A stretch of 64,000 nt of DNA, taken from contig NZ_CP036402.1 in the NCBI RefSeq assembly GCF_004322855.1, positions 1,798,001-1,862,000 of the forward strand, in the 5' to 3' direction. Below are positions 13,278 to 15,553 of the stretch, in pieces. The DNA is from Egibacter rhizosphaerae. Lineage in GTDB: Bacteria > Actinomycetota > Nitriliruptoria > Euzebyales > Egibacteraceae. Each line of letters begins with the position of its first letter. Positions within the stretch are counted from its first letter, which is position 1. The notes under the pieces were generated by a model. The model saw nothing but the letters and a program-made list of their open reading frames with translations. It was not told the origin of the DNA and did no database searches. The translations under genes and the position numbers were made by a program.

Positions 13278-14129
13278 TCACCTGACCCACTGCACCGCGG
13301 CGTCGCGGGCGGCCTCCACCTGTGAGCCCGATTGACGGCGTGCCATGCGGCGCACGACGTACGTGGCCGCGACGGAGCTGACGACGGCCCAGGCGACCAG
13401 CACCACCACGGTCAGCCCGGTCCGCCAGCTGCCCCCGATCTCGCCGGCGGCCGCAGCGTCCGGCAGGAAGGCCGAGCGCATCCCCAGGGCGATCCAGTAC
13501 ATCGGGAAGGCCTGCGCCACCCCCTGCACCCACCCCCACAGCTCCTGGACGGGGTAGAAGACGCCCGAGATCATGGCCAGCACGACGACGGGCAGCATCC
13601 CCCACGTCCCCACCTTCTGGGCGTTGGGCACCAACGAGCCGATGATGATGCCGAGCGGCAGCATCGCGAGCATGCCGAGCACCAGCACCCACACGGCGGT
13701 GAGCACACCGGTCCACCCGCCGTGGAACAGCCCGTCGAACAGCACGGCGCTCGGGATGAGCACCACGGCGAGCAGCGGGAGGACGCTGGCCATCTGGAAC
13801 AGCAGCTGGCCACTGATGTAGCCGACGATGCCGCGCGGAGCCGCCTTCAGGCGCAGTAGCGTGCCATCCTCGCGCTCCATCGCCAGGGCGTACGCGGGCC
13901 CGATGACCACGCCGAAGGCGATGAGGCCGCCGAGGATGCTCGGCATCGCGACCGTCGGGAGCATGAGTCCCTCGCCGACCTCGTTGTCGCGGTTGAACCA
14001 CAGGAACGTGAGGGTCCCGATCGCGACGAAGAGGTAGAAGCCCTGGTCCTGCGGGCTGCGCAGGCTCAGCAGGAATTCGGTCCATCCGCGCCGCAGGCCG
14101 ACCCCGATCGCGTCCAACGTGCGGTTCAT
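13278..14129 (-). CDS. ABC-2 type exporter permease
   Basis: A 283-residue membrane protein with six predicted helices, the transmembrane half of an ABC-2 exporter. The region MEREDGTLLRLKAAPRG is the cytoplasmic loop found in these permeases, and GVFYPVQELWGWVQGVAQAFPMYWIALGMR precedes the final helices. Its ATG overlaps the stop codon of the ATPase gene by four bases, so the two are translationally coupled. The substrate cannot be inferred. Confidence 0.85.
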   Translation of the reverse strand: MNRTLDAIGVGLRRGWTEFLLSLRSPQDQGFYLFVAIGTLTFLWFNRDNEVGEGLMLPTVAMPSILGGLIAFGVVIGPAYALAMEREDGTLLRLKAAPRGIVGYISGQLLFQMASVLPLLAVVLIPSAVLFDGLFHGGWTGVLTAVWVLVLGMLAMLPLGIIIGSLVPNAQKVGTWGMLPVVVLAMISGVFYPVQELWGWVQGVAQAFPMYWIALGMRSAFLPDAAAAGEIGGSWRTGLTVVVLVAWAVVSSVAATYVVRRMARRQSGSQVEAARDAAVQWVR

Positions 14130-15115
14130 CGCCCGACCTCCTCGCCGTCGGCGCCGGCAGCCCCCGCGAAGCGGACCGCGGCGAGGTCCCCGCGCCCCGT
14201 CTCGTGCTGCTGGACCATCGCGATGTAGGTATCCTCGAGACTCGCTCGCTGCACCTCGAGTTCGGTGAGCTCGTCACCGTGCTGGGCGAGGAGCTCGCGC
14301 ACGAACGCGATCGGCTCCTCGGTCGCGTGCACGAACCGCTGCCCGTCGAGGTTCCAGCGGACCTCGGCCTCGGTCGCCACCTGCCGGGCGAGCTCGTCGG
14401 CCGTGCCATCGGCCACGACCTGCCCGCCGGCGAGGATCAGGATCCGGTCCGCGAGCTTCTCCGCCTCGTCGAGGTCATGGGTCGTGAGCAGGATCGTGGT
14501 GTCCTCGAGGTCGGTGAGGCGGTGGATCAGGTCGTGGAACTCGCGGCGCGCGTGCGGGTCGAACCCCGCGGTCGGCTCGTCGAGGAACAGCAACTCGGGT
14601 CGGCCGACGATGCCCGCCGCCACGTCGAGCCGGCGCCGCTGACCACCCGACAGCAGGCGGATCTTCTGGTCGGCCTGCTCCCCGAGTCCCACCATCTCGA
14701 TCAGCTCGTCGGCCGGATACGGGCGCACCCGCTCCTGAGTGGAGTAGGGCTCGAAGAACCGGCCCAGGTGCGCGAGCAGTTGCCGGGGCGTCCAGCGCGC
14801 GTGGTCGCGCCACGACTGCAGGACCACACCGACCCGCGCCCGCCAGTCCTCGTCGGCGCTCGCCGGGTCCTCGCCCAGGATGAGCACATCGCCCGCGGAC
14901 CGGCGACGGAACCCCTCCAGGATCTCGATGGTGGTCGTCTTCCCGGCCCCGTTCGGGCCGAGCAGGGTCACGACCTCGCCGCGCCGCACCTCGAAGTCGA
15001 CGCCGGTGAGGACGTCGACGTCCCCGTAGCGCATCCGCAGGCCGCGGACCCTGACCGGCGGCCCGGTGGTGTCCACGGCGAGGCCGTTCGGCTCGGCATG
15101 ATCGGCGGTTCGCAT
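14126..15115 (-). CDS. ABC exporter ATPase
   Basis: A 329-residue nucleotide-binding subunit. Walker A is [12 protein letters not shown], the signature motif is LLSGGQRRRLDVA, Walker B is ELLFLDEPTAGFDP and the switch His is in TTHDLDEAEKLADR. A C-terminal tail of about 80 residues resembles the DrrA-type regulatory extension. The ATG at 15115 follows GGGAGGGG on the minus strand. An in-frame ATG further up lies inside the operator and upstream of the likely transcription start, so it was rejected. It forms an operon with the permease and XRE gene. Confidence 0.87.
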   Translation of the reverse strand: MRTADHAEPNGLAVDTTGPPVRVRGLRMRYGDVDVLTGVDFEVRRGEVVTLLGPNGAGKTTTIEILEGFRRRSAGDVLILGEDPASADEDWRARVGVVLQSWRDHARWTPRQLLAHLGRFFEPYSTQERVRPYPADELIEMVGLGEQADQKIRLLSGGQRRRLDVAAGIVGRPELLFLDEPTAGFDPHARREFHDLIHRLTDLEDTTILLTTHDLDEAEKLADRILILAGGQVVADGTADELARQVATEAEVRWNLDGQRFVHATEEPIAFVRELLAQHGDELTELEVQRASLEDTYIAMVQQHETGRGDLAAVRFAGAAGADGEEVGR

Positions 15116-15148
15116 TCTGACTGTCCCCTCCCGTCGCAGCAGCCGAGG

Positions 15149-15182
15149 ATAGTACTTGTGCTGCATGGGCAGCACAAGCACT
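15149..15182 (-). promoter_or_regulatory. Promoter of the ABC exporter operon, covered by a palindromic operator
   Basis: On the minus strand, TTGTGC (15177-15172) and TACTAT (15154-15149) are separated by exactly 17 bases, a good -35/-10 pair. The same bases form an inverted repeat: AGTACTTGTGCTGC (15151-15164) and GCAGCACAAGCACT (15169-15182), with one mismatch in 14 and a four-base centre. A bound repressor would block the polymerase site completely. Confidence 0.7.
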
Positions 15183-15250
15183 AATCCATCCCGGGCGCCC
15201 CCGAGGGCTACGCTGGCCGTCGTCCCTTCACCCGAGTCGGGAACGGCCCA

Positions 15251-15553
15251 TTGGACATCCACCTCACGCCGGACGCCTCCGAGCTCATCCGCCGCCGCGG
15301 GGGCACGGCCGCGCTCAACTTCATCCGCGCCGTCGGGTGAGGCGGCCAGCCCGAGGTGTCGGTCGACACCTACCTCAAAGGCAAGAACACCAGCGCGTAC
15401 GCCCAAGCCGCGCACGGTGACGTCGAGGTCCTGGTCGCACCGTCGATGGCGCGCTGGTCGAACCGCATCACGATCGACATCAAGCGAGGCCTGCTCGGCC
15501 GCCGCTTCGACGTCGCCGTCGAGCACCAGCACGGACCGGCCTGCCAGCACTGA
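15251..15553 (+). CDS. HesB-like small protein with in-frame TGA: candidate selenoprotein
   Basis: One frame runs from TTG at 15251 to TGA at 15553 (100 residues), interrupted only by TGA at 15338-15340 (codon 30). The part before (LTPDASELIRRRGGTAALNFIRAVG) and the part after (GGQPEVSVDTYLKGK, then ITIDIKRGLLGRRFDVAVE) match the plan of the small HesB-related family in which several members carry selenocysteine where other HesB/IscA proteins have the conserved Cys. The TGA sits at that position. A hairpin with a GGTC loop follows at 15355-15370. Without UGA read-through the gene would be a nonsense mutant. Start codon and ribosome site are weak. It lies divergent from the ABC exporter operon. 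Confidence 0.6.
15355..15370 (+). promoter_or_regulatory. SECIS-like hairpin after an in-frame TGA
   Basis: GGTGTC (15355-15360) pairs perfectly with GACACC (15365-15370) and leaves the loop GGTC. The loop begins 20 bases after the TGA, close to the 18 bases in E. coli fdhF, whose SelB-binding loop also begins GGUC. The bulged U of fdhF is not evident. Confidence 0.5.

Follow-up and report, generated by a model that had tools for sequence, protein, structure and literature searches.

Two groups of bacterial selenoproteins form the closest described background to the gene analysed here. HesB-like selenoproteins, whose published motif is UxGP (PMC13188914), and the NF041239 family are both already known (PMC1794560, PMC13188914). 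The latter appears in a recent review with known selenoprotein members, a single selenocysteine (Sec) and the motif CxxU (PMC13188914 Table 1). According to the same review (2026), bacterial SECIS elements reside within coding regions (PMC13188914). The bSECIS model describes them by a loop of 3-9 nt, a stem of 4-16 bp and a G within the first two loop positions (PMC13188914), together with a UGA distance of 16-37 nt and an MFE of at most -7.5 (PMC13188914 section 5). The review also contains families with Sec near the C-terminus, termed UXX-star and KCU-star (PMC13188914).

The window gene and its in-frame TGA

The window, that is, the whole stretch of 64,000 nucleotides that was analysed, harbors a short gene in frame 1. 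This frame runs from a TTG at 15251 to the stop at 15551-15553, and its sole interruption is the TGA at 15338-15340 (codon 30), exactly as the original prediction had described it. The TTG start aligns with an ATG in most relatives. The features of the gene are as follows:

15251..15553, + strand: predicted selenoprotein coding sequence, 100 residues, TTG start, TGA as terminal stop, collinear with 26 relatives over its whole length
15338..15340, + strand: putative Sec-encoding UGA, residue 30; TGA in 54 loci (window included), TGC/TGT in 11
15354..15371, + strand: predicted SECIS hairpin, stem AGGUGUC/GACACCU, loop GGUC, UGA-to-loop distance 20 nt, in agreement with four bSECIS criteria
15524..15550, + strand: C-terminal tail HQHGPACQH, with H94 and C98 nearly invariant in alignment A1
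15542..15544, + strand: codon for Cys98, the conserved cysteine of the C-terminal HxHGPxCxH tail; a second TGA stands here in the two-Sec relatives

A standard gene caller would be expected to split the window gene in two. An ABC-transporter ATP-binding ORF (window 14126-15550, minus strand) is open antisense over the entire selenoprotein gene; a gene caller could therefore wrongly extend this ORF and hide the selenoprotein. An inverted repeat, AGTaCTTGTGCTGC-ATGG-GCAGCACAAGcACT, was seen by eye at window 15151-15182, in the space that separates the selenoprotein gene from the divergent ABC-transporter gene on the minus strand, and is a possible operator. Across the family, the gene neighbourhood reveals no conserved neighbour and no hint at function: most recurrent neighbour clusters overlap the selenoprotein gene in a different frame or on the opposite strand, and the others occur in at most five loci. 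A search of a plasmid collection returned zero matches.

Homologues and the exchange of TGA and Cys

A tblastn-type search of 101 related genomes yielded matches in 21 others. A scan of genome contigs added 26 loci in Acidimicrobiales, Chloroflexi, and Acidobacteria MAGs, and 27 of the 393 genomes in the class of the Chloroflexota genome G434 have a match, some of them seen before. Over 65 loci (totals that leave out L131, with an E-value of 5e-4, and the partial L040), residue 30 is encoded by TGA in 54, the window included, and by a Cys codon (TGC/TGT) in 11, with no other residue. The original prediction had placed the TGA at a conserved Cys/Sec position, in agreement with this strict alternation. 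The TGA form spans Actinomycetota, Chloroflexota, and one Acidobacteriota MAG, with frames intact on both sides. Conservation past the TGA, which had been put forward as a check, extends as far as the C-terminal Cys in almost every homologue; the C-terminal tail is absent from L059 and L122.

Sec machinery

The genome of the window (one contig, 4.64 Mb) contains selB (295 bits) and selA (425 bits), both above cut-off and ~2 kb apart, selD (360 bits), and a tRNA-Sec (72.5 bits) that ARAGORN reports as tRNA-SeC with anticodon TCA. The search for selA, selB, selC, and selD suggested with the original prediction has thus been answered: selA, selB, selD, and the tRNA-Sec are all found in this genome. 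Two further matches to the SelB model, of equal score (194.7 bits) and ~20 kb apart (G000:C1:2836595 and G000:C1:2856813), are probably duplicated EF-Tu genes. SelD itself (G000:C1:795781-796701, minus strand; L041) displays an in-frame TGA within a GAGUACK motif, followed ~33 nt downstream by a hairpin, GGCGCAG-GTC-CTGCGCC, with a GTC loop; besides the window gene, the genome therefore probably encodes one or more other selenoproteins.

In a first set of homologues, selA accompanies the TGA form in 10 of 11 genomes (only as a fragment in G063) and the Cys form in 6 of 11. In a second set of 26 genomes, all with TGA forms, selA scores above the cut-off in 22. Full-length selA was not found in G048 and G063 (TGA form, 80% and 59% complete), nor in G423, G430, G433, and G438, whose contigs are titled MAGs, the absence of a gene from a MAG being weak evidence.

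The hairpin downstream of the TGA

The core hairpin, GGTGTC-GGTC-GACACC, occupies 15355-15370 and starts 14 nt past the TGA. The original prediction had given it six pairs, a GGTC loop, and distances of 14 and 20 nt to stem and loop, all of which hold; a seventh pair (A-U, 15354/15371) can be added. RNA folding, also proposed as a check, gives -9.7 kcal/mol for the 18-nt hairpin alone and -10.8 kcal/mol in a 36-nt context. Loop (GGTC), stem (7 bp), distance (20 nt), and energy (-9.7 to -10.8 kcal/mol) all lie within the bSECIS criteria. Among the 1132 TGAs of the window (both strands), this exact geometry is unique to the TGA at 15338-15340. However, a bSECIS-like hairpin of some kind, with six or more pairs, accompanies 51 of them (4.5%), so that the hairpin alone is weak evidence and no proof; its conservation in other species raises it above chance.

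This conservation is found at the level of codons. The 37 TGA loci collected first show almost no codon variation beneath the stem-loop, with GTG (37/37), TCG (33/33), GTC (37/37), GAC (37/37), and ACC (35/36), whereas elsewhere in the same genes these codons account for 34%, 32%, 57%, 73%, and 54%, respectively; the loci are related, and products of these frequencies are not probabilities. The hairpin is thus nearly invariant at synonymous sites in the TGA forms, and it is lost or broken in 11 of 11 Cys forms. Covariation within this first SECIS is low because the element is almost invariant, and the evidence consists of the freezing of synonymous sites and a few compensatory loci: L125, L126, and L122 (the last with another loop) carry paired synonymous changes from GGTGTC/GACACC to GGTATC/GATACC. 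A mismatch within this first stem is found in six TGA loci (L065, L067, L068, L069, L115, and L116), and another in L130.

Family assignment

The NF041239 model matches the window protein with 26.2 bits (P0001), or 27.5 bits when the first codon is read as M and the trailing residue is left off, against a cut-off of 40. The alignment is nearly full-length (profile positions 1-87 of 91), and the model matches 27 of 27 members of alignment A1. A full-length match below the cut-off points to an uncatalogued sister subfamily. The motif at the Sec position is mostly G[U/C]GG in the family of the window and CCGG in true NF041239 members; the CC motif is lacking in the window protein (GU or GC in its family) and present in L078, L079, L081, L082, and L086. 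No Pfam model matches the window protein, and the only hit of a profile search against PDB sequences was a chance match.

The window protein is, as predicted from model and sequence, a protein of HesB/IscA fold and a sister of NF041239, not a member of TIGR01911. The original prediction of a HesB-like protein thus stands at the level of the predicted fold and falls as far as TIGR01911 is concerned, to which there is no sequence match.

Predicted fold and candidate metal site

The AlphaFold2 model built from A1 has a pLDDT of 86, dropping to 59 in the C-terminal tail. In a Foldseek search against the PDB, SufA (E 5e-5), IscA (E 5e-4), and their relatives rank at the top. VIA-align gives Z-scores of 10.1 with SufA (2d2a) and 9.7 with IscA (1x0g), within an IscA/SufA range of 8.1-10.1, the next unrelated row being at 2.4. 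Sequence identity in the structural alignments with A-type proteins is mostly 13-18%. A near full-length, collinear profile alignment with IscA-like paralogues, of low statistical weight (hhalign probability 5.8), aligns residue 30 with the first Cys in their GGC[SA]GF motif.

Sec30 would take the position held in IscA by the first ligand cysteine, and Cys98 would lie near that of the C-terminal ligand cysteines. The HQHGPACQH sequence is a possible metal-binding tail. The odds are roughly even that Sec30 and Cys98 join with the His-rich tail in a single metal, Fe-S or redox site, and that both ligand positions are Sec in Chloroflexota. This joint site of residues 30 and 98 stays putative because the tail of the model is of low confidence.

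A second TGA and a hairpin past the stop in relatives

The window gene itself has one Sec and a C-terminal Cys. In 23 loci, mainly from Chloroflexota, a second TGA is found at the position of Cys98 (L024, which belongs to the window's own class, L052, L053, L055, L056, L057, L060, L065, L069, L107, L112, L113, L115, L116, L119, and L123-L130). The frame continues past this TGA for 1-4 residues, nearly always including a His, up to the true stop, with endings such as PTUAH-stop, PTUQHG-stop, and TUSASH-stop. In most of these loci a second hairpin lies ~20-25 nt from the second TGA, with its loop beyond the stop codon, and the sequences of the stems vary while their pairing is kept. These Chloroflexota relatives apparently carry a second selenium site, which would be read from a signal past the final stop.

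The pair count of the second SECIS, which left out L060 and the near-duplicate L116, is inflated because its segments were hand-picked as hairpins; the shuffle comparison is the fair test, and there the best stem score averages 6.07 observed versus 2.87 shuffled (maximum 3.65 in 1000). In a smaller comparison, loci with Cys at position 98 have weaker hairpins at this place (Mann-Whitney P 0.0004, a value that is too small as the loci are related). In the tree, the two-Sec loci fall in one Chloroflexota clade and two other places (L053 and L024), many forks being weakly supported; this scatter suggests that the two-Sec form was gained or lost more than once. In L045 (3001-3330), a Chloroflexi homologue, the tail is nearly repeated past the stop (PTCAH-stop-EPACAH-stop), possibly by a short tandem duplication of the C-terminal codons.

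Alternative readings

The evidence makes it very probable that the window gene is a functional one-Sec gene, in which the UGA at 15338-15340 is read by the SelA, SelB, SelD, and tRNA-Sec of its genome to yield a product with a predicted A-type fold. The hairpin at 15354-15371 would direct Sec insertion at this UGA, and the product would be a 100-residue predicted HesB/IscA/SufA (A-type) protein. This confidence rests on the exchange of TGA and Cys, the conserved SECIS, the complete machinery, and the predicted fold, and it is held apart from the metal, Fe-S or redox site. The same machinery, the TGA/Cys-only homologues, and the downstream conservation lend strong support to the original proposal that UGA encodes selenocysteine here. 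A stop codon in frame and a protein that no Pfam model matches could also describe a dead HesB-like gene with a nonsense mutation, but this is scarcely credible given that the TGA is kept in 54 loci, with Cys as its sole alternative and both flanking frames intact; its conservation in three phyla rules out the pseudogene and sequencing-error readings alike. It is similarly far-fetched that another amino acid is inserted, or that a regulated readthrough operates independently of the Sec system: an open frame past the TGA is not enough to identify the residue, but here TGA swaps only with Cys, the hairpin tracks the TGA and disappears with it, and selA is usually present. Membership of the window gene in TIGR01911 is very improbable as well. 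The predicted fold is alike, Sec lies at the equivalent place, and one distant relative, L126, weakly matches the model (E 0.035); however, the window protein is unmatched at E up to 10 and was rejected by score (below the cut-off of 66.35 bits), its genome holds no match at E 0.001, UGGQ replaces UxGP, and all of A1 is matched by NF041239 instead.

A further alternative concerns the two-TGA relatives only. Hairpins past stop codons are commonly transcription terminators, and the second TGA might then simply be the stop of a protein ending in PT; the stems of L053 and L119 are imperfect and that of L069 has a mismatch, in line with this reading. It is nonetheless unlikely: in the alignment the second TGA takes the place of a conserved Cys, and it is followed by the short, His-containing extension and another stop, no T-run directly follows the stem in the sequences shown, all loops but one have the GU signature, and in the 19 clear cases the position of the loop is steadier relative to the TGA (sd 2.0 nt) than to the stop (3.0 nt). 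The broader proposal of an undescribed HesB/IscA-fold subfamily, in which two ligand cysteines have separately been replaced by Sec, one served by an in-frame SECIS and the other by a 3' UTR SECIS, to create a diselenol metal, Fe-S or redox site, is slightly favoured.

Significance

With this analysis, the genomes of Actinomycetota and Chloroflexota gain a selenoprotein subfamily that had not been catalogued. If the assignment is true, Sec sits at a predicted ligand position of the A-type iron-sulfur carrier fold, and the one-Sec form (window), the two-Sec form (mainly Chloroflexota), and the no-Sec form with Cys are natural comparisons for the role of selenium. The second SECIS past the stop, in most of the 23 loci, would be a good test bed for 3' UTR-directed Sec insertion in bacteria. 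No description of the subfamily or of its two-Sec form was found in the literature consulted, and an earlier account may exist in the Haft papers.

Comparison with known systems

The A-type Fe-S carriers IscA, SufA, and HesB have the A-type fold in common with the predicted model of the window protein. IscA and SufA possess three ligand cysteines, the last two in a CxC motif, whereas the window protein has a single C-terminal Cys98 together with Sec30, and thus Sec in place of a Cys. In the NF041239 CC/Se motif family (Moorella thermoacetica type), the Sec/Cys position, which it shares with the window protein, lies in a CCGG motif; in contrast, the first Cys of this CC pair is a Gly in the window protein (GUGG versus the CCGG of L079), which also has a His-rich C-terminal tail. 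The TIGR01911 HesB-like selenoproteins share with it the predicted HesB/IscA fold and a Sec at the first ligand-Cys position, but differ from it in sequence, with neither a match nor the UxGP motif on the window side. Finally, the UXX-star and double selenoproteins (Haft and colleagues; in PMC13188914) have, judging by their names, Sec near the C-terminus and, in some, two Sec. By names and listed motifs these are families separate from that of the window; with Sec so near the C-terminus, the SECIS of UXX-star would lie past the stop codon. Since UXX-star and KCU-star both seem to imply such a position, the arrangement in the two-Sec relatives is unusual, not unprecedented.
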